Origin: a virus
IMG/VR virus record: IMGVR_UViG_3300033153_004547
Location: 1-33,195 of that record
Length of the DNA: 33,195 nucleotides
Direction: 5' to 3' (one strand)
Shown here: positions 6,521 through 33,195 of the stretch, piece by piece
How the letters are laid out: each line of letters starts with the position of its first letter
How positions within the stretch are numbered: the first letter of the stretch is position 1
Position numbers and translations under genes: made by a program
Notes under the pieces: generated by a model
Database searches by the model: none
Told to the model about the DNA's origin: nothing
Seen by the model: the letters and a program-made list of their open reading frames with translations, nothing else

Positions 6521-7832
6521 AAAAATAGAAATGCAACGTGCCCAGGCATTATTTCAGAACCAATTGGAGGTTTTGCCGGATGAAGTCCATGAACATGGTG
6601 TTGGTAAAATCCTGGGGATCCAGGTAATGACCAAAGGCAGATTGTCTGACATTTCAGGTGATATGCGGAATTGGGAAGTTGATGACACAACCCTTGATCA
6701 GTTGGAAACCCATGGCAATTCAATTAAAAACGGTGTCAAAAGCCGTTTTGGCCATCCGAACATGTCATCAAGTGCAGTTGGAAAATTTCTTGGCCGGGTG
6801 TGGAATTTCAGGCGGGATGAAAAAACAGGTGTCACCAGGGGTGATTTGTTTCTTGATGCATCCGCATATGATACACCGATGGGCAACCTGGCTGGTTATG
6901 TTCTTAAATTGGCCAAGAGTGACCCGGCCGCATTTGGAACCAGCATTGTTTTTGATGCAGACCTTGCATTCAGGCTGAATGAAGATGGCACGGAACAAAC
7001 CGATGAAAATAATGAACCATTGCCAGCCCTTTTAAGGATCACCCGCCTTTATGCGGATGATGTGGTTGACGATCCGGCCGCAAACCGTGGAATGTTTGGT
7101 TATACGGAATCAGTGAAATTATCAGCCAATGCAACATCCCTTTTGGATAAAATTACGGAAACACCTGAATTATCAGGATTGCTTGAAAAAGTTATAAATG
7201 AAAATATGCTGGATGGTGCGGACATGCCAGCATTCTTGAAAAGATATCTGGCCAACCTACAAAATAAAAAGAAAGGAAATACCATGGCAGATGAAAACAT
7301 CGAAATTGAAAACGTGGAACCCGTAGAGGTTGAAGAAACCGAAACGGAACAGGATGTGGTTGAAGAAACCGAAACAGAAGTGATTGACACCCCGGAAACC
7401 GAAACGGTTGAAGAAACTGAAACCGAACCGGCAACATTTGAAGATGGTTTCAAGAACGGCGTGGAAATAGAACGGCAGAGGATCCTTGATATTCAAAGTG
7501 AAGCCAAGGCCCTTGCAAACGGCCGCAATGTTGACCTGAATGCGATTTCCGAAAAACTGGTTGCCAATGGAACGGATGTTTCACTTGCAGTTGAAGAACT
7601 TAAAGATGAAACCCTGAACATTCTGACAAGCCAGGCCCCGGAAACCCCCGGCCCCAATGATGAACCGGAATATGAAGTTGGCCGGGACACGGATGAAATG
7701 GATGCCCATGAATATGAAAAACACCTGGAAAAAACCTGGGACAAAAACAAAAAGGTCAGAAAAGAATTCTCAAATGACAAAAGAGCATTTATTTCATACT
7801 CAAAGGCCCACAAAGGCGGGCAGGTAAAATAA
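6495..7832 (+). CDS. Capsid maturation protease with C-terminal scaffold
   Basis: A 445-residue protein in two parts. Residues 30-210 look like a prohead serine protease: SRFGHPN with candidate catalytic His87, then AVGKFLGRV, GDLFLDASAY and AAFGTSIVF with candidate Ser150, the His-then-Ser spacing of HK97/Mu-type proteases. From about residue 264 the protein becomes very acidic (repeated EETETE) and then helical, as expected of a scaffold. Several in-frame ATGs exist (6471, 6486, 6489, 6495, 6504). I favour 6495, which is 9 bases after an AGGGGG run. The scaffold part can also be made separately from 7284. The nested arrangement parallels lambda C/Nu3. Confidence 0.82.
   Translation: MTTMKAINKKIEMQRAQALFQNQLEVLPDEVHEHGVGKILGIQVMTKGRLSDISGDMRNWEVDDTTLDQLETHGNSIKNGVKSRFGHPNMSSSAVGKFLGRVWNFRRDEKTGVTRGDLFLDASAYDTPMGNLAGYVLKLAKSDPAAFGTSIVFDADLAFRLNEDGTEQTDENNEPLPALLRITRLYADDVVDDPAANRGMFGYTESVKLSANATSLLDKITETPELSGLLEKVINENMLDGADMPAFLKRYLANLQNKKKGNTMADENIEIENVEPVEVEETETEQDVVEETETEVIDTPETETVEETETEPATFEDGFKNGVEIERQRILDIQSEAKALANGRNVDLNAISEKLVANGTDVSLAVEELKDETLNILTSQAPETPGPNDEPEYEVGRDTDEMDAHEYEKHLEKTWDKNKKVRKEFSNDKRAFISYSKAHKGGQVK
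7284..7832 (+). CDS. Nested in-frame scaffold protein (Nu3-like)
   Basis: An internal ATG in the protease frame opens a 182-residue product (MADENIEIENVEPVEVEE onward). It is preceded by AAAGGAA at 7272-7278 with optimal spacing, and just before it the upstream protein turns Lys/Asn-rich (LANLQNKKKGNT), a natural linker. The product is acidic, then helical, with a basic C-terminus (KHLEKTWDKNKKVRKEF) that could bind the capsid protein. Lambda makes its scaffold Nu3 from the same frame as protease C, so the architecture has precedent. Separate translation here is inferred. Confidence 0.65.
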   Translation: MADENIEIENVEPVEVEETETEQDVVEETETEVIDTPETETVEETETEPATFEDGFKNGVEIERQRILDIQSEAKALANGRNVDLNAISEKLVANGTDVSLAVEELKDETLNILTSQAPETPGPNDEPEYEVGRDTDEMDAHEYEKHLEKTWDKNKKVRKEFSNDKRAFISYSKAHKGGQVK

Positions 7833-9965: not shown

Positions 9966-10571
9966 ATGGATGCCGGGACAATTCCCAGGCACAAAGATGA
10001 AACCATTATCATTCTTGGCAACGGGCCAAGCCTTAAAGATTTTGATTTCACATGCCTGGATGGGTTCACAACCATTGGGGTCAACCGGATCCCTGAAATA
10101 TTCGATCCTGATTATCTGGTTTTTCTTGACCCAATAACCTGGGCCGAAAATAAGGAATTGATCATTGAAAGCAAGGCAACCGTCAAATATTGTCCCGAAG
10201 ATATCGACACGGGCGGCATCTGTAAACCGTTCAAAAGGTATTGGCCAGGGGCCCTGGACCCGATCATTTCAACCGATTGGGAACAAGGTTTGTTTTTCGG
10301 ATATACTGTTATAATGGCCGCCATCAATCTTGCGTATTTGATGGAGGCAAAAAAAGCTGTTTTGTTGGGTGTTGACATGCATGATCATTCACATTATTAC
10401 GACAATGAACCAGGTGCCCCAATTGGTCCAGGGTTCAAAGTAATAATACGGCATTTTGTACGGTTGAAAAGTTTTTGCCTGAATAAATGCAACAATTTCC
10501 AGGTCCTTAATGGGAACCCTGGTTCCAATGTAAAATTATTTGATGTTGTAAAGGTGCCCAATGACCTTTGA
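9966..10571 (+). CDS. GNGPS-motif glycosyltransferase-like protein (copy 1)
   Basis: A 201-residue protein with a Rossmann-type start TIIILGNGPSLKDFDF (GNGPS at 18-22), DPDYLVFLDP near residue 50, AAINLAY near 120 and GVDMHDHSHYY at 135-145. GNGPS followed by a VNRI-type segment and DYLVFLD is characteristic of the DUF115/MptE-like and family-42 sialyltransferase group, which handle nucleotide-activated sugars or pterins. It is not a normal morphogenesis gene. A paralog with the same motifs lies at 13828. It probably acts in the cytoplasm; substrate and acceptor are unknown. Glycosylation of a virion protein is a reasonable hypothesis. Confidence 0.7.
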   Translation: MDAGTIPRHKDETIIILGNGPSLKDFDFTCLDGFTTIGVNRIPEIFDPDYLVFLDPITWAENKELIIESKATVKYCPEDIDTGGICKPFKRYWPGALDPIISTDWEQGLFFGYTVIMAAINLAYLMEAKKAVLLGVDMHDHSHYYDNEPGAPIGPGFKVIIRHFVRLKSFCLNKCNNFQVLNGNPGSNVKLFDVVKVPNDL

Positions 10572-13001: not shown

Positions 13002-13828
13002 CAATAAACCATGAAGCTGGTGCAAGTGTAGTATTTAACGAGGTTTCACCCGATGCCCCAAGCATTACAGGGGCAACCCCTGGTGACACAGAGGTTGTAT
13101 TGGCTATTGATGCCGCAACCGAGTCTGATGTTGTTTATGCACGTTACAGGACAGTTGGTGGGTCATGGTCCGGTGAATCAGAATCATTTAAAAGAACGGG
13201 TGATGGTGATATCACCATCACGGGCCTGACAAATGAAACTCGTTATCAGTTTGGAATATATGCCAAATCCGGCGTTTTGCTTTCACCCTGGGATTTCATA
13301 AGTGCAACCCCAACAGCATCCACAATTTCACCATTGAGTATATTAAGCAAGCCCCTGGATTATCTAAGGACAACCCTGGCCAATTCAGGCAATTTCCAGA
13401 CAATGGTTGATGCCGTTGATGCCAATGCGGCCCTGGAATATATAAAAATAGTACGAACAGATGACATGGACACACCCTGGGCCGTGGTTGATTGGTCTGA
13501 CAATTTCAGCATTAATCAAATTTCAGGGGGTGCCCGGAACCATTACATGTCTGATGGTTCCCTTGCGTTCATATTGCGGGAAGCAATCACGGAAAGTGAT
13601 TTTGATGATGCCGCAATTGCTTTTATGAACCATGTTGGGGCAATCCTGGTTGACCTGGCCGGATTGGGTGGAACCGGCGGGTATCTGGATTGGACAACAC
13701 TGAGGCAGGAATATGGCCCCATCCGGCCAAAACTGAAACGGCGGCAAAGCCAAACTGATTCAGAAGATACATTACTTGGCAATTTTTATGAAATTATGTT
13801 CTTGGTTGATTTCCGTGGGATTGTGTAA
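12998..13828 (+). CDS. FN3 domain fused to a tail-terminator-like domain
   Basis: A 276-residue two-part protein. Residues 19-106 are a fibronectin type III domain (DAPSITGATPGDTEVVLAI, then VYARYRTVGGSW, TITGLTNETRYQFGIYAKSG). Residues 115-276 look like a tail-completion/terminator protein: DYLRTTLANSGNFQTMVDA at the start, a TPWAVVDWSD strand and a final YEIMFLVDFRGIV strand. Tail terminators cap the tube and are usually about 130-150 residues, so the FN3 part is an N-terminal addition. Its position between head-joining and tube genes supports the call for the second half. Confidence 0.55.
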   Translation: MTINHEAGASVVFNEVSPDAPSITGATPGDTEVVLAIDAATESDVVYARYRTVGGSWSGESESFKRTGDGDITITGLTNETRYQFGIYAKSGVLLSPWDFISATPTASTISPLSILSKPLDYLRTTLANSGNFQTMVDAVDANAALEYIKIVRTDDMDTPWAVVDWSDNFSINQISGGARNHYMSDGSLAFILREAITESDFDDAAIAFMNHVGAILVDLAGLGGTGGYLDWTTLRQEYGPIRPKLKRRQSQTDSEDTLLGNFYEIMFLVDFRGIV

Positions 13829-14406
13829 TGGATGACCTGAAAAATCAAACCGTGATCATCCTGGGCAATGGCCCATCAATCAATGACCTTGATTTTGACA
13901 TTGTTTCCAGGTTCAAAACCATTGGTGTAAATGTGATCCAGAAAATATATGATCCTGATTATCTTGTAATTCTGGATCTGGTTACGGCCATCCGTGGCCA
14001 GGAAATGTTTAAGAACGGCAATGCAACAATCTATTATCCGGTTGAAGATAATTTTCCAGTTCAAGGCATTAAATTCCCAAGGTGGCGGCCATCACTTGGC
14101 CTTGACATCTTTACTGCCAGCATGGACCAGGGTGTTTTCTGGGGGCATTCAAGCGTTCTTGCGGCCATTAACCTGGCATATATCCACGGTGCGGAAAAAA
14201 TAATCCTTGCGGGGGTGGATTTGCACGATCAATCACATTTTTATTCAGATGATGGCCAGGACAAGGGGTTTCTAAACCTTGAATATACCATCCAGGATTT
14301 CAATAAGGTTGCCGAATTTATGAACAATAAAGGTGTCCCGGTTTACAATTTGAACCGTGACAGCCTTTTAAAATGTTTTAAATATATCAGTTTAAATAAT
14401 TTATAA
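13828..14406 (+). CDS. GNGPS-motif glycosyltransferase-like protein (copy 2)
   Basis: A 192-residue paralog of the protein at 9966. It shares TVIILGNGPSINDLDF (GNGPS at 13-17), YDPDYLVILD (41-50), AAINLAYI and GVDLHDQSHFYS near 129-140, but the middle section differs. The same DUF115/MptE or sialyltransferase-like assignment applies. The two copies lie near the two ends of the block 9.97-14.4 kb. Divergence of the middle suggests different acceptors or subunits of one enzyme. The start overlaps the previous stop (TAATG) and is followed by a tube gene with its own strong ribosome site. Confidence 0.7.
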   Translation: MDDLKNQTVIILGNGPSINDLDFDIVSRFKTIGVNVIQKIYDPDYLVILDLVTAIRGQEMFKNGNATIYYPVEDNFPVQGIKFPRWRPSLGLDIFTASMDQGVFWGHSSVLAAINLAYIHGAEKIILAGVDLHDQSHFYSDDGQDKGFLNLEYTIQDFNKVAEFMNNKGVPVYNLNRDSLLKCFKYISLNNL

Positions 14407-14420
14407 ATGGAGGTAAGAAA

Positions 14421-15371
14421 ATGAGCGGTTTGACAAAAGCATTCACCCTTTATGCGGCCAATCTGGACAAATCAGGCACCGGCAATGACACGTTTTTTGA
14501 TCAGGTCCAGGACAAAGGATTTTCCCCCGGAATAACTGAAATACTTGCAGGCGGTGACGGTGGTATTTATAATCTATTTGCTGGAGTTGGCCAACAGGAT
14601 CCACGGGGAACATTTGCAACCCAGGCGGTTGCAAAGGCCCTTAGTGCCGTTGGGATCAATGGCGTTGATTTTGCCAAGGCAACGGGCGTGACAGCCCTTG
14701 ACCTTTATTTCCAGGCATATGCCCAGGGGGGAACTAGGGGTGGTGATGGAACAAATACCAAATTGACATTTAACAAAGGGATTTTGCTTCCACGAACCTT
14801 GACGGCCGATCAGACAACCCCGGCCCAGATTGCCCTTGAAGCGGCCGCAATATGGGATGGTGACAATGACCCGGTTTCAATTGCGGTTGACCAGAATTTA
14901 CCTGGCACCCCCGCAGTTGATGAAATCTTTTATGCTGGCCCGGCATCATTGGGCGGTGTTCAACTTGATAGTGTATCATCATTAAATTGGGATTTTGGGC
15001 GGACATTACTTGGCCCATTATTCAGTGATGGTGATGTTTGGGGTAAATATACAGGCATCCAGAGCGGGCAATCAAGAATAACCTTGACCGGCCTTGACCT
15101 TGAACTAATTAACATACTTGGCCTGACAGGCCAAAAACAAGAGGTTGGGGAATGTATTATTTATTTGAAACGTGCGGAACATGGTGCCACAAGATATGCG
15201 GACGGTGCATCGCAACATATCAAACTGGAAATTGACAAGGGCCTTGCATTTGTTGATGACGAAAGTGCATCCCAGGGATCAGAGGGGACCGTGTCCGTGA
15301 CAATTTTGCCAATACCCAATGGTGCGGATGACCCGGTTCAGATTACAACCCTTTCAGCAATTACATTTTAA
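14421..15371 (+). CDS. Major tail tube protein
   Basis: A 316-residue protein with GGAGG 10 bases upstream, consistent with high expression. Position is directly ahead of a probable chaperone with frameshift and the tape measure, which is the fixed order of siphovirus tails. The sequence is Gly/Ala/Asp-rich with many strands (SGQSRITLTGLDLELI, SQHIKLEIDKGLAFVDDES, GTVSVTILPI), as expected for the tube beta-sandwich. It is longer than simple tube proteins, so it may carry an extra surface domain. No family-specific motif was recognised. Confidence 0.7.
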   Translation: MSGLTKAFTLYAANLDKSGTGNDTFFDQVQDKGFSPGITEILAGGDGGIYNLFAGVGQQDPRGTFATQAVAKALSAVGINGVDFAKATGVTALDLYFQAYAQGGTRGGDGTNTKLTFNKGILLPRTLTADQTTPAQIALEAAAIWDGDNDPVSIAVDQNLPGTPAVDEIFYAGPASLGGVQLDSVSSLNWDFGRTLLGPLFSDGDVWGKYTGIQSGQSRITLTGLDLELINILGLTGQKQEVGECIIYLKRAEHGATRYADGASQHIKLEIDKGLAFVDDESASQGSEGTVSVTILPIPNGADDPVQITTLSAITF

Positions 15372-15379
15372 GGTGTAAA

Positions 15380-16078
15380 ATGGGTATATTTTATTATTTT
15401 GTTCCGGGCAACCCTGAACTGGCCCGGCAGGCAAGTGATTATGGCATCACACCATTTGGTGATCTGACATTAAATCATTTTGCCAGGGTGGGCGGCAAGG
15501 GCCCTGATGGAACCAAGGGTGTCTTTTTTGGTTTTGCCCCCCCAGGGGTCCGGCCCAAGGTTGGTTTTTATCCTGGCCAACAGGAATGGCAAGAATGCCA
15601 GGGCTATTGGATCGGATATTATAAAGACGATCCACCCATCCCTGAACATTTGATCCGGCCGAGCAATAAATTAATATCTGGGCATTTTGTGGACGGCTGG
15701 ATGATACCAACGGCCAGGGTTTTTCCTGATGGAACACAATTGCCGGAATCTTTTATCCTGAATGATTCAGGTGAATGGGAATCTGAAATCCGGCCAGAAT
15801 TCCTGTGCCTTTCAAAAAGGTGTGAACGGGCCTGGAACATGATTGTCAAAACGGATGATGCCGACATGGACCAGGTTGATTTGATTGACCTGGCAGTTGA
15901 TGCAATCAAAATTAATTATTACGTTGATAAAAATGAAATTTCACATGCAAGATTACTTGACAGCCAAATGATGCGGCAAATAATATTTGCCCTGGTTGAT
16001 TGGCATACAGCATTATCAATGATAAAAGAAAACAATGAAGCCCGTAAAAAAAAAGACCAACCCGGAACACCAGATTGA
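15380..16078 (+). CDS. Tail assembly chaperone (gpG-like), zero-frame product
   Basis: A 232-residue protein between tube and tape measure, the invariant place of tail assembly chaperones. The N-terminal half is aromatic and proline-rich (FVPGNPELARQASDYG, PKVGFYPGQQEWQECQGYW). The C-terminal half is helical (MRQIIFALVDWHTALSMI) and ends in a Lys-rich tail (EARKKKDQPGTPD). Nine adenines at 16046-16054 encode the last lysines and form an A-AAA-AAA slippery heptamer in the correct phase. A -1 shift gives a longer gpGT-like product (see 16054-16155). The chaperone normally coats the tape measure during tube assembly. Confidence 0.65.
   Translation: MGIFYYFVPGNPELARQASDYGITPFGDLTLNHFARVGGKGPDGTKGVFFGFAPPGVRPKVGFYPGQQEWQECQGYWIGYYKDDPPIPEHLIRPSNKLISGHFVDGWMIPTARVFPDGTQLPESFILNDSGEWESEIRPEFLCLSKRCERAWNMIVKTDDADMDQVDLIDLAVDAIKINYYVDKNEISHARLLDSQMMRQIIFALVDWHTALSMIKENNEARKKKDQPGTPD
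16048..16054 (+). promoter_or_regulatory. Candidate -1 frameshift slippery site A_AAA_AAA
   Basis: The zero frame reads CGT AAA AAA AAA GAC, so the last seven of nine adenines (run 16046-16054) match X_XXY_YYZ with two lysine codons in phase. Slipping back one base continues into an open frame of 33 codons. No strong downstream pseudoknot was found by eye. Confidence 0.6.
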
Positions 16079-16155
16079 TAACACATCAATTATGGCGGGC
16101 GGGAAAAATTAAGTATATCCCAACATTTGCGGATTATTTTTTGCTAGGAAATTGA
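16054..16155 (+). CDS. -1 frame extension of the tail chaperone (gpT-like part)
   Basis: After the A-run the -1 frame stays open for 33 codons to TGA at 16153-16155 and would extend the chaperone to about 258 residues. It reads like protein, including LWRAGKIKYIPTFADYFLLG, although it has no start of its own. The stop shares its last base with the next ATG (TGATG), the same coupling seen at most junctions in this genome. The region is otherwise an unexplained gap between 16078 and 16155. Together these make programmed frameshifting, as in lambda G-T, the best explanation. Confidence 0.6.
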   Translation, partial: RPTRNTRLITHQLWRAGKIKYIPTFADYFLLGN

Positions 16156-16730
16156 TGTTCATATTAACGGCAGAGTTAAGGGAAAACGTTAGCACCTTAA
16201 AGCGGAAACGTATGACAAAACATGTCAAGACGGTTTTGGATGCGGCCCTTGATTTTTGGCACGAAAACTTTCTGCCATTGCACACAAAAAGAACAGCATA
16301 TTTTAGATATCCAGATGCCTTTGAACATAGAAAGTCAAGGGGGGCACCCCTTAGAAATTTTGGACATTTTGCGGATCACATTGAAGATCCAAGCCAAAGG
16401 CACCGAAAAGGCGGAACGGCAACCAGCCGGAAATTAAAAATCACCCTGGGCCGTCCGATGAAATACACCGGGCATTTGCTTGAAATCCAAATATTAAAAG
16501 AAATATCAGGATATAAATTTAAAACAGGGAAACGATTGACAAAAGATGAAGCCCTGGCCCGTGTTTATGCAAAGGCTGGTTACAGCCCCAAGGCAAAACA
16601 AACAATGCAAGCCAGTTTACCTGTAATAAATAATGTTGAACAATCGACAATTATAAAAAAGGTTATTAAGCCCGGTTTGATTAAATTGATGAACCAACCG
16701 AAACCTAAAAGGCGGAAAAAAATTGGCTAA
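16155..16730 (+). CDS. Basic tail morphogenesis protein, possibly gpZ-like
   Basis: A 191-residue, strongly basic protein (C-terminus PKPKRRKKIG) between the chaperone and the tape measure. It begins with an amphipathic helix (RMTKHVKTVLDAALDFWHENFLP), has HTKRTAYFRYPDAFEHR in the middle and TLGRPMKYTGHLLE after it. Size and basic helical character resemble minor tail proteins such as lambda gpZ (192 residues), but the order differs and no family motif is certain. AGGA sits 5 bases before ATG 16155, which overlaps the frameshift stop. It overlaps the tape measure start by 8 bases. Confidence 0.5.
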   Translation: MFILTAELRENVSTLKRKRMTKHVKTVLDAALDFWHENFLPLHTKRTAYFRYPDAFEHRKSRGAPLRNFGHFADHIEDPSQRHRKGGTATSRKLKITLGRPMKYTGHLLEIQILKEISGYKFKTGKRLTKDEALARVYAKAGYSPKAKQTMQASLPVINNVEQSTIIKKVIKPGLIKLMNQPKPKRRKKIG

Positions 16731-18225
16731 TACAGTTGATATTGAAGTCAATGCCGATGTTGCCAAGGCGGTTGCCCAACTGTCCAAAGTGATTAAAAAG
16801 CAAAGTGAAATTACCAAAGGGTTGACAGAACAGACCCGGAAAAGCCGGAAAGCCCAAAAGGCCAGTGTTTCCATGGGCCAGAAGTTTGCCAAATCATTAA
16901 GGAACGTGGCCATTTCCCTGGCGGGCATTGCCGGGTTTTCTGCAATATTCCAAGGGATTAGGACATCAATTAAAGAGGCAAGAACCGAAACAATCCTGTT
17001 TGAAAATGAACTGACAGACCTTTTGAGCCTTGGAACAAATATTCAAAATATTTCAAACTTAAAAGCAGAAGTGCTGACATTTTCATCCGCCTGGGGCATT
17101 TCCCGTGACGAAATCACAACCGCAATGTTTGACATCCAAAGTGGTGCATCAAGCCTTGGTAAAGAAATGCGGGATTCCATTATGCGGGAAGCCCTTGAAC
17201 TGGCCAAGGTGACGGGGGCAGATTTGCCAACGGCCGTCAAGGTATTGCTTAAATCATGGAACATTTATGGTGATGAAATTGACGATGTAAACCAGGCACA
17301 GAATAAACTTTTCAAAACGGCTGAACTTGGATTTCTGACATTCAATGACTTGGCAGTTTTGTTGCCGGACGTTGCAAATGCGGCCAAGGTTATGGGGGTT
17401 GATTTTGATACTGTTTTGGCAACCCTGGCAACGGCAACCCAAACCGGCGGTAAAACTGAAAAAACTTTCACGGGTGTCCGTAACGTTTTCCTTAGAATGC
17501 AAAAGGCCCAAGAGGCGGGCATTGTTACATCGAGTAATTTCACCGATCAACTTGAAGAACTATCAAGGGTTGATTCCGATGTATTGACAAAAATATTTGG
17601 TGCCGAGGCAATCGGCGTGATTGCAAGCCTGGTTGCAAATACAAAGGCCCTTGGGGAGAATCTTAAAGAAATCAAAGAAGTCACAGGCGACATTGCCCGT
17701 TCAAAATTTCTGGAAAGAATGGGTGACGCTAGTTTTGTTTTTGCTGAATTAAACAAATCATTGGAACAACAGAAAAAAAATCAACTTGTAAGTCCTGAAT
17801 ATATTAAAAAGTTTGGGGAAACTGATATAAAATCACAGGTTGCCGCCCAAGGTTATAGGGAATCAACCCCGGCGTTTTTAAATTTCCTTGCACCCGTTGT
17901 TGGTGCATTGGAGGCCATTGGCCAATATACAGGAATAAAAAGCGGGTTAGGTGAACAATTTGGGGAGATTGGTGGCCAAAGATTTGTTCAGGACCTGGCC
18001 GTTGGGGGCAGAACAGAGGAAGCCCATTATGCAAGTATATATTTGGAACGTGGCCCAGAGGCGGCAAATGAATGGATTGCAAGCCTGGTTAATGAGGGGG
18101 CACCAGGCAAAGAAAAGGCGGCGGCCAAACTTGATGCCATGGGTGATCTTGCAAAGTCGGCCGCAAACGATCTTAGAAAAGAGGGTTCCCGGCCAACCAG
18201 TAGAACAGTGAACAGGGGTGAATAA
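16723..18225 (+). CDS. Tail tape measure protein
   Basis: A 500-residue helical protein with a TTG start preceded by AAGGCGG. The N-terminus (VDIEVNADVAKAVAQLSKVI) and a hydrophobic stretch at about 60-80 (NVAISLAGIAGFSAIFQGI) are typical. Residues 90-340 fit the TP901-type tape measure core: ENELTDLLSLGTN, GISRDEITTAMFDIQSG, ALELAKVTGADLPTAVKVLLKS, DVANAAKVMGVDFDTVLATLATATQTGG. At about 0.15 nm per residue this predicts a short tail of roughly 75 nm. The stop overlaps the next ATG. Confidence 0.85.
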   Translation: MANTVDIEVNADVAKAVAQLSKVIKKQSEITKGLTEQTRKSRKAQKASVSMGQKFAKSLRNVAISLAGIAGFSAIFQGIRTSIKEARTETILFENELTDLLSLGTNIQNISNLKAEVLTFSSAWGISRDEITTAMFDIQSGASSLGKEMRDSIMREALELAKVTGADLPTAVKVLLKSWNIYGDEIDDVNQAQNKLFKTAELGFLTFNDLAVLLPDVANAAKVMGVDFDTVLATLATATQTGGKTEKTFTGVRNVFLRMQKAQEAGIVTSSNFTDQLEELSRVDSDVLTKIFGAEAIGVIASLVANTKALGENLKEIKEVTGDIARSKFLERMGDASFVFAELNKSLEQQKKNQLVSPEYIKKFGETDIKSQVAAQGYRESTPAFLNFLAPVVGALEAIGQYTGIKSGLGEQFGEIGGQRFVQDLAVGGRTEEAHYASIYLERGPEAANEWIASLVNEGAPGKEKAAAKLDAMGDLAKSAANDLRKEGSRPTSRTVNRGE

Positions 18226-19149: not shown

Positions 19150-20193
19150 ATGCCTGATGAAAAAACACAATTTGACAGTCTTTGGTGGTGGTTAAGCGGT
19201 GCGGCCAGTGATGGTGCGGCCCAGGCGGACCCTGACGAAAGCCTTGGCCTTTACAGGTCAAGCACAGAGGCCGAACACCTGGACATGACTATAACCAACC
19301 CTTTTTCAAATATTTCCATTGATTTTGCCCCAGGAATAAACGGAACCGGTAGTGGTTCACTTGCGGGTGACGGGGCCAATGCGGTCCGTTATACTGCCCC
19401 AGGCGGTTCAGCGGGTGCATGGGTTACGATCCTGAATGGGGAAACAAAGATTGCTGTTTCCGGCGGTGGTGAAAGCCAGAAATATGTCAGGATTTCAAGA
19501 ACCGACACGGACAACCTGACAGGCACGGCAACCATAGTTTTTGCCACTATTTTCAACAATGTCCTTGGTGCCAACAATCTGACATCCGCCTGGGCAACGG
19601 CGGGCCGTGATTCAATCCGGGCGTATATTGTCAGGAATGAAGCATCAAAAGAAATTAAGGACCTTAAAATATGGGTTAAGACAATCGGCACGGCACGGGT
19701 TTCCGATGGCGGCCAGTTGGGTGCATCGGGTGCGGGCACGGTTGTTACAACAGGCAGTTTGGCCGATTGGGAAGATACCGGATATTGCCGGATTGTTGAT
19801 AATTTGGGTGCATTGCGGGAAATCGTATATTATGAGTCCAGAACTGACACAACCTTGACGGTCCCGGCGGCCGGGCGTAGTGCATTGGGAACATCAGAGG
19901 AGGCCGGTGCGGGAACAGATGACATTTATTGTGTCCCTGGGATCCGCCTTGGAAAAGAAGCCCCAAGCGAACAGCCGGACGGGTTTATTGAAGATGAAAC
20001 CGGTGATGAAACTGGAATTCCGGGCGGCGGTGCCCCTTGGATCACTGGTATTTCGGAAACAGATGGCCTTGAAATCGGTGATCTTGAAAGCGGTGAAATT
20101 TATGGTGTTTGGATCAGGCGGACAGCCCCGGCGGGTGTCCTTGCGGACCCTGATGTTTTACATTCAATCGGATATAGTTATGAGGCCGCATAA
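19150..20193 (+). CDS. Tail-tip protein, tandem paralog A
   Basis: A 347-residue beta-rich protein of unknown family. It shares ordered motifs with the next gene: SLGLYRSSTEAE near residue 32, VRYTAPGGSAGAWVTI near 80, GETKIAV, KYVRISRTDTDN, then VYYESRTDTTLTVPAAGRSALG and GIRLGKEAP. This shows tandem duplication. The N-terminus DSLWWWLSGAASDGAAQADP is followed by long Gly/Ser/Thr-rich strands. Likely a structural adaptor between tail tip and fibres. It has its own GGAG site. Confidence 0.6.
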   Translation: MPDEKTQFDSLWWWLSGAASDGAAQADPDESLGLYRSSTEAEHLDMTITNPFSNISIDFAPGINGTGSGSLAGDGANAVRYTAPGGSAGAWVTILNGETKIAVSGGGESQKYVRISRTDTDNLTGTATIVFATIFNNVLGANNLTSAWATAGRDSIRAYIVRNEASKEIKDLKIWVKTIGTARVSDGGQLGASGAGTVVTTGSLADWEDTGYCRIVDNLGALREIVYYESRTDTTLTVPAAGRSALGTSEEAGAGTDDIYCVPGIRLGKEAPSEQPDGFIEDETGDETGIPGGGAPWITGISETDGLEIGDLESGEIYGVWIRRTAPAGVLADPDVLHSIGYSYEAA

Positions 20194-20195
20194 CA

Positions 20196-21230
20196 ATGGC
20201 AACAATTCGTGACAGGGCAGATGCCGCAAGGTTTTATTATACGGGTGCGGATTCCGATGGCGGGGACCAGGCCGAGCCTGATTTAAGCCTTGGGTCATTC
20301 AGGTCATCAACTGAGGTTGAGGGCCTTGTCCATGACACAGACCCGGCATATGGAACCGTTGATTATGTTGCGGGATATAATGGCCCAGGGACCGGCGTTA
20401 TTACGACCACGGCCCCTGACCAAATCCAATATACTGCCCCAGGGGGGGCCATTGGGCCAGCGGTTACAATTGCAGATGGGGAAACCCATGTGGTTGAAAG
20501 CAATAATCCATCAAAATATATACGGTTTACCCGAACCCAGGCGGCCGCATTGCCAAGCGACACGGACAACATTGTTTTAACCGATCCGGCAAATGGTGTG
20601 ATTGGTGCCCGTGATGCGGTTGATGCTGATTTCAATGGCGGCCCGCTTGTCCGAGCGGTAATGATGAAAAATGAACATGTTTCATCATCCAATATTACCA
20701 GCCTTATTTTATTTCTGGGGGCCTTGGGAACATATACATCATCTGTATCAAGCAACCTTGATAATTATGGTGCGGGTGAAATTGCCCTTGATTGTTCAGA
20801 TTGGCCCGAATCCGGCTGGTGTCTTTTAATTCAAACCGCAGATGGGTTCCCAATTGAAGTTGTATATTATTATGCACGAACTGACAGCAAAATATATGTT
20901 GGTGCATCAGGCAGGGGCCGCATGGACACGATCCCAAAAGATCACACCGGTTTATCAATGCGGGCGGTCCCGATTCCAGGAATGCAATTGGCCATTGAAA
21001 CACCGGATGCAGATGAATTGTCCGGTGATTTAACCGTTGGTGAAACATATATTCCGCCGGATCTTGTTTTCACAAAGCCTTGGGGAACGGCCGCCTGGAT
21101 GTTTCCAATCAGTATTGGAACCATGGCCAAAGATGATATGATTGGCATTTGGTTTAAACTGGATATGCCGCCTGGTGTGATTGGTGAAAGTGACGTTCTG
21201 AAACATATCAGATTGAATGGAATTGATTAA
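20196..21230 (+). CDS. Tail-tip protein, tandem paralog B
   Basis: A 344-residue paralog of the preceding gene, starting two bases after its stop. Shared motifs in the same order are SLGSFRSSTEVE, IQYTAPGGAIGPAVTI, GETHVVE, KYIRFTRTQ, VYYYARTDSKIYVGASGRGRMD and GMQLAIETP, with a matching PPGVIGESDVLKHIRL end (PAGVLADPDVLHSIGY in paralog A). Middle sections differ. The pair may form a hetero-oligomeric ring or arms. The stop overlaps the next start (TAATG). Confidence 0.6.
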   Translation: MATIRDRADAARFYYTGADSDGGDQAEPDLSLGSFRSSTEVEGLVHDTDPAYGTVDYVAGYNGPGTGVITTTAPDQIQYTAPGGAIGPAVTIADGETHVVESNNPSKYIRFTRTQAAALPSDTDNIVLTDPANGVIGARDAVDADFNGGPLVRAVMMKNEHVSSSNITSLILFLGALGTYTSSVSSNLDNYGAGEIALDCSDWPESGWCLLIQTADGFPIEVVYYYARTDSKIYVGASGRGRMDTIPKDHTGLSMRAVPIPGMQLAIETPDADELSGDLTVGETYIPPDLVFTKPWGTAAWMFPISIGTMAKDDMIGIWFKLDMPPGVIGESDVLKHIRLNGID

Positions 21231-33130: not shown

Positions 33131-33195
33131 TGTTAGAAGAAAAAAAAAAACTCCACATTGGGGCTGGCCCCTGGTGGAGAACACCGGCCGGATGG
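33130..33195 (+). CDS. SAM-dependent methyltransferase-like, N-terminal fragment
   Basis: GTG 33130 overlaps the previous stop and has GGCGG 6 bases upstream. The frame is open to the window edge: 22 residues including KKKLHIGAGPWWRTPAGW. This resembles the start of class I methyltransferases of the type KLHLGCG followed by PGW, often found in glycan-modification loci. An 11-adenine run (33140-33150) encodes the lysines. Only the edge is seen, so the call is tentative. Confidence 0.4.
   Translation, partial: MLEEKKKLHIGAGPWWRTPAGW

Follow-up and report, generated by a model that had tools for sequence, protein, structure and literature searches.

Gene neighbourhood of the slippery site

The window, meaning the whole stretch of DNA analysed here (IMG/VR virus record IMGVR_UViG_3300033153_004547, positions 1 to 33,195; 33,195 nucleotides), belongs to a tailed phage and encodes a GpA-type terminase, a portal, a major head protein and a short tape measure protein of 500 amino acids. 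On its plus strand, a putative major tail protein gene (14421–15371), assigned from its position without a family match and kept in three relatives (L022, L086 and L087), precedes a chaperone-like zero-frame ORF of 232 amino acids (15380–16078). The next gene on this strand (16155–16730; 191 amino acids) has a weak PHROG match to an unknown family and is followed, again on the plus strand, by the tape measure protein gene (16723–18225; phrog_991, E=1e-20; phrog_28, E=1.4e-19), so that one small gene separates the chaperone-like gene from the tape measure in the window.

The zero-frame gene ends in ...CGT AAA AAA AAA GAC CAA CCC GGA ACA CCA GAT TGA, with its stop TGA at 16076–16078 (plus strand). 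The nine adenines (A9) occupy 16046–16054 of the same strand in phase 0 (AAA AAA AAA), and their last seven bases (16048–16054) form an in-phase A_AAA_AAA. A preliminary description of this DNA had reported such a run near the end of the chaperone gene, and we confirmed both its coordinates and its sequence. In the -1 frame a TAA stop stands where A9 begins, after which 33 codons are open, as that description also held. This -1 extension (16054–16155, plus strand; 33 codons and a TGA at 16153–16155) reads RPTRNTRLITHQLWRAGKIKYIPTFADYFLLGN, contains the conserved core W..G...Y.PT.AD and brings the fusion product to 258 amino acids. Its TGA indeed shares one base, the A at 16155, with the ATG of the next gene; the accompanying claim that stop and start overlap in this way at most junctions was overstated, with one-base sharing at 5 other junctions of about 29 checked. 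Within the ORFs checked, A9 is the sole A/T run of nine or more, the remaining runs there being A8; an A11 run lies at 33140–33150, near the contig end and just outside these ORFs. The predicted model of the 232-amino-acid zero-frame protein is confident (pLDDT 90.9) and comprises an N-terminal alpha/beta part and a C-terminal helical domain, the last helix of which stops just 5' of the A-run.

Elsewhere in the window, two related genes between the head and tail modules (9966–10571 and 13828–14406) belong to phrog_4603, annotated as alpha-2,3-sialyltransferase; both match one L002 gene (80% and 37%, respectively), and the second is also weakly MptE-like. Two adjoining genes (19150–20193 and 20196–21230) each match the same single gene of L022 (49% and 37%), which makes it probable that a tail protein gene was duplicated in tandem.

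A family of diverged homologs

The window protein has no match in PHROGs or Pfam, direct searches with it found no match in viral contigs or GenBank phages, and the 258-amino-acid fusion has no match in Pfam. A search with the capsid led to a prophage (L022), identical in sequence to a Methylophaga MAG locus (L082), whose syntenic gene is 35% identical to the window gene, has A9 and is followed by a similar -1 peptide. The family was gathered by chained profile scans through capsid, neighbouring-gene and chaperone alignments in viral contigs, and consists of 50 complete, non-redundant members, namely the window and 49 diverged homologs. Since the peptide patterns scanned were drawn from the zero-frame protein or from neighbouring genes and left out both the A-run and the -1 tail, the homologs were not selected for either. 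Searches by tblastn with the chaperones of L022, L092, L087 and L119 against GenBank phages, and with that of L098 against plasmids, returned no relative. About 770 bacterial genomes yielded only the known Methylophaga prophage and one weak match (L173), which was shown to be spurious. In locus L093, peptide units such as RRWIPDRVGDDK recur in ORFs that lie between phage genes at about 2433–2750 and 7214–7684, suggesting dispersed DNA repeats.

Conservation of the -1 tail

The preliminary description had named homologs with a closed or non-coding -1 frame as evidence that would tell against a shift. Past the slippery site the frame is open in all 50 members, and it is conserved with coding-like codons. 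An alignment of the 50 members gives a shared tail core of roughly RW..Y.RW..G....Y.PT.ADL..L, and the motif W..G..P is found in 48 of the 50 tails, which range from 30 to 65 amino acids across the family (33 in the window). Third positions vary in the G, P and T codons of the tail while the residues are kept. In three close pairs the pN/pS of the tail is 0.15, 0.48 and 0.57, and the tail is, judged by these ratios, under purifying selection. The recurrence of the -1 reading in 50 diverged homologs, and of the A-run in 48, is far beyond chance. What the sequences show is a -1 frame that stays open, codes for protein and is conserved across the 50 homologs.

The position of the core bears on how the tail is translated. 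Some members have it ahead of the zero-frame stop and others beyond it, and in 21 of 48 loci the -1 frame offers no ATG, GTG or TTG before the conserved W, which makes a separate small gene unlikely. Independent initiation of the -1 ORF was rejected on this start-codon survey of 48 loci. Taken together, the lack of a start before the core and the position of the core relative to the stop indicate translation from the upstream gene through a -1 shift. One start would accordingly serve a common protein of 232 amino acids and a rarer fusion of 258, the last 33 residues of which would be read in the -1 frame.

A slippery site fixed in length and free in phase

Conservation of the A-run among homologs, which the preliminary description had proposed as a check, was found in 48 of the 50 members. 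The sites fall into A9 (42), A10 (2), A8 (1), A7 (3), GGGAAAC (1) and GGGAAAA (1), such that an A/T homopolymer of at least nine occurs at 44 of 50 sites. The A9 runs take the forms NNN AAA AAA AAA, NAA AAA AAA ANN and NNA AAA AAA AAN, and are spread over phases 0, 1 and 2 as 18, 12 and 12 (chi-square p 0.42). An in-phase slippery heptamer is present in all 50 members, including the six exceptions that have neither A9 nor A10, each of which holds an in-phase ribosomal heptamer: the three A7 runs are all in the one phase that yields A_AAA_AAA, the A8 run also contains A_AAA_AAA, and the two sites other than A-runs are an in-phase G_GGA_AAC and G_GGA_AAA (L105 and L155). The statement that the site is unlike the classic GGGAAAG therefore holds for the window but not for these last two relatives, with their GGGAAAC and GGGAAAA.

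If an in-phase heptamer were the sole requirement, exact A9 would be expected at no more than 19% of A-run sites, whatever the flank composition; it was observed at 42 of 48. The corresponding P of about 1e-24 is nominal, with sites treated as independent, and is optimistic because the homologs are related. Exact A9 also predominates within the individual phases, at 12 of 15 A-run sites in phase 1 and 12 of 15 in phase 2. On a weakly resolved tree of 36 taxa, the label of phase and length needs at least 17 changes, compared with 19.1 for shuffled labels; such a near-random distribution implies that the phase moved often while the length stayed. Genomes carrying A9 reach 69% G+C, and in some loci of 65–69% G+C the stretch fetched contains no other A/T run of at least six. 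Lysine codons within the site are 81 AAA versus 7 AAG, compared with 123 versus 139 elsewhere in the same genes. By these measures, the slippery site is under selection at the nucleotide level.

RNA structure around the site

A stem-loop is predicted in the RNA at 16057–16103 (plus strand; -15.8 kcal/mol, z -3.38, with 0 of 200 shuffles as stable) and is a candidate stimulator. Its strong core, CCCG...CGGG around CCAGAUUGAU/AUCAAUUAUGG, begins at 16061, 6 nt past the A-run, which is within the 5–9 nt spacing expected of a downstream stem-loop; across the A9 class this feature is variable. Downstream structure is stronger at the six heptamer exceptions (mean z -2.08) than in the A9 class (-0.63; p 0.015, n=6 versus 44); the A9 class as a group is itself slightly more structured downstream than controls (p 0.003). 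No structure was found in the RNA 5' of the run. A Shine-Dalgarno-like upstream element occurs in 14 of 50 members, compared with 15% of control positions. Early stops in the +1 frame, expected if slippage also deletes bases, were not significantly enriched (p 0.12).

Polymerase or ribosome

Slippage by RNA polymerase depends on a homopolymer about as long as the RNA/DNA hybrid (9–10 bp; PMC5009743), whatever the reading phase, and so predicts a fixed length independent of phase. The fixed length and free phase of A9 therefore favour RNA polymerase slippage over a lambda-like heptamer. Probably the hybrid realigns on A9 and the polymerase adds one A, giving an mRNA with A10; the ribosome, aided by the downstream stem-loop, may contribute by slipping -1 on the A_AAA_AAA within the run. 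In a minority of relatives, purely ribosomal heptamers would take the place of A9. Selection against slippage appears at a length of nine in many bacteria, and Thermus dnaX exploits A9 for transcriptional slippage (PMC1088944). In cassettes from other genes in E. coli, frameshifting rises from 10% at A7 to 40% at A9 and 63% at A11, figures that do not distinguish polymerase from ribosome (PMC3711429).

The strongest alternative is that the shift is purely ribosomal, occurring at A_AAA_AAA under stimulation by the downstream stem-loop in the manner of lambda G/GT and dnaX, and that the two extra adenines only boost its efficiency. Several observations fit this account, which we regard as a serious contender that falls short of even probability. 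The ribosome could slip at every A9, since each necessarily contains an in-phase A_AAA_AAA, and in the window this heptamer is joined by the stem-loop 6 nt downstream (z -3.38). Downstream structure is enriched in both site classes. A ribosomal shift is suggested by the sites of the relatives with A8, GGGAAAC, GGGAAAA or A7 (the last always in the permissive phase), and phage phi3LM21, with a related capsid, carries an in-frame A_AAA_AAC in its unrelated chaperone. However, ribosomal slippage does not predict a fixed run length regardless of phase: phase 1 needs eight adenines and phase 2 just seven, yet exactly nine are found at 12 of 15 sites in each. Nor does an upstream Shine-Dalgarno-like stimulator appear consistently, at 14 of 50 members against 15% of control positions.

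For the window itself the level is ambiguous, as its sequence combines A9 with a strong stem-loop where ribosomal stimulators classically sit. Polymerase slippage with a possible ribosomal contribution appears to be the most likely mechanism, with purely ribosomal slippage close behind. Of the lambda-type -1 frameshift proposed in the preliminary description, the fusion design and the open -1 frame stand, while its level is called into question by the phase-free A9, which fits transcriptional slippage better. Both levels yield an identical fusion peptide, RKKKRP, so mass spectrometry of the fusion is blind to the level of slippage.

Proposed assignment as a tail assembly chaperone

The gene is best assigned, from where it lies and from its two-product design, as a tail assembly chaperone like G/GT. 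It is supported by the tape measure gene close downstream (16723–18225). In most relatives the next long ORF is no more than 30 nt away, and a PHROG tape-measure match was obtained in L092 and L157 but in none of the other eight relatives scanned. The pair would act like lambda gpG/gpGT and hold the tape measure protein, and the -1 tail would recruit the tail tube protein. None of the members tested convincingly matches an entry of PHROGs, Pfam or NCBIfam or a PDB sequence, and when the full model and its C-terminal helical domain were compared with known folds, neither met a confident counterpart. Known tail chaperone families are mutually very diverged.

It is rather unlikely, in our estimate, that the two-product gene codes for some other tail-morphogenesis protein, a reading compatible with either level of shift. 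The members tested would be in keeping with it in having neither a convincing sequence-family match nor a confident fold match, as would the size of the window protein, which at 232 amino acids and with its N-terminal alpha/beta part is larger than the 123-amino-acid chaperone of phi3LM21. Against it, the gene lies just 5' of the tape measure in the window and in relatives, and a short C-terminal -1 extension is the characteristic G/GT design. Hardly credible is expression of the -1 ORF as a separate small gene by reinitiation at TTG 16075, for although this codon (16075–16077) overlaps the zero-frame TGA (16076–16078) in the window, the W core is often upstream of that stop, 21 of 48 loci have no start ahead of W, and the conserved A-runs and GGGAAA heptamers would be left unexplained. 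On balance we lean towards a gene with two products and a gpG/gpGT-like role, in which the shift at A9 occurs largely through RNA polymerase, perhaps with a ribosomal contribution.

Comparison with known systems and implications

Recoding in the -1 direction is textbook knowledge for tail chaperones; among long-tailed phages few features are as conserved as the chaperone frameshift, which is assumed to be ribosomal. Lambda G/GT (Xu, Hendrix and Duda 2004; reviewed in PMC5009743) resembles the window gene in lying before the tape measure and in using a low-level -1 shift near the 3' end to add a short domain, whereas the two have no detectable sequence relation and the slippery site is GGGAAAG in lambda and A9 in the window. 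The dnaX homologs make the same products at two levels, by transcriptional slippage at A9 in Thermus and by ribosomal slippage at A_AAA_AAG in E. coli. The family resembles Thermus dnaX in having A9 as a probable polymerase site, but in the phage genes the shift yields a longer protein, and sites of both kinds are found in a single gene family. IS elements likewise use A9 for -1 access to a second ORF (PMC1088944); their product is a transposase rather than a tail protein, and their homologs vary from 8 to 10 adenines, while 42 of 50 members here have exactly A9 with the phase free. Transcriptional slippage at A9 is thus already known from dnaX and IS elements. Two phages with related capsids and unrelated chaperones, the D3112-like PaMx73 (T_TTT_TTC; PMC4378225) and phi3LM21 (A_AAA_AAC), have -1 sites before the tape measure that are plain heptamers, unlike A9. 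In Sinorhizobium phage phi3LM21 (L094, 17658–18163), the -1 frame of the chaperone, which is unrelated in sequence to that of the window, is open over the gene annotated p41, and the record leaves the two unjoined.

Our search of open-access papers turned up no account of a tail chaperone that uses transcriptional slippage, nor of a phase-free, length-locked A9 together with ribosomal-heptamer lineages in one phage family. We consider it evenly balanced whether these genes form an uncatalogued tail chaperone family that sets its product ratio mainly by polymerase slippage on a length-locked A9, with some lineages ribosomal. This further chaperone-like family went unrecognised by PHROGs, Pfam and NCBIfam in all the members tested, so viral annotation will probably overlook genes of this kind together with their fusions. 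With length fixed and phase free, mRNA sequencing can test the level of recoding directly, and the family supplies natural A9, A7 and GGGAAA versions of one gene for comparison. If the proposed model is true, the family would represent a natural swap of recoding level inside one viral gene family.
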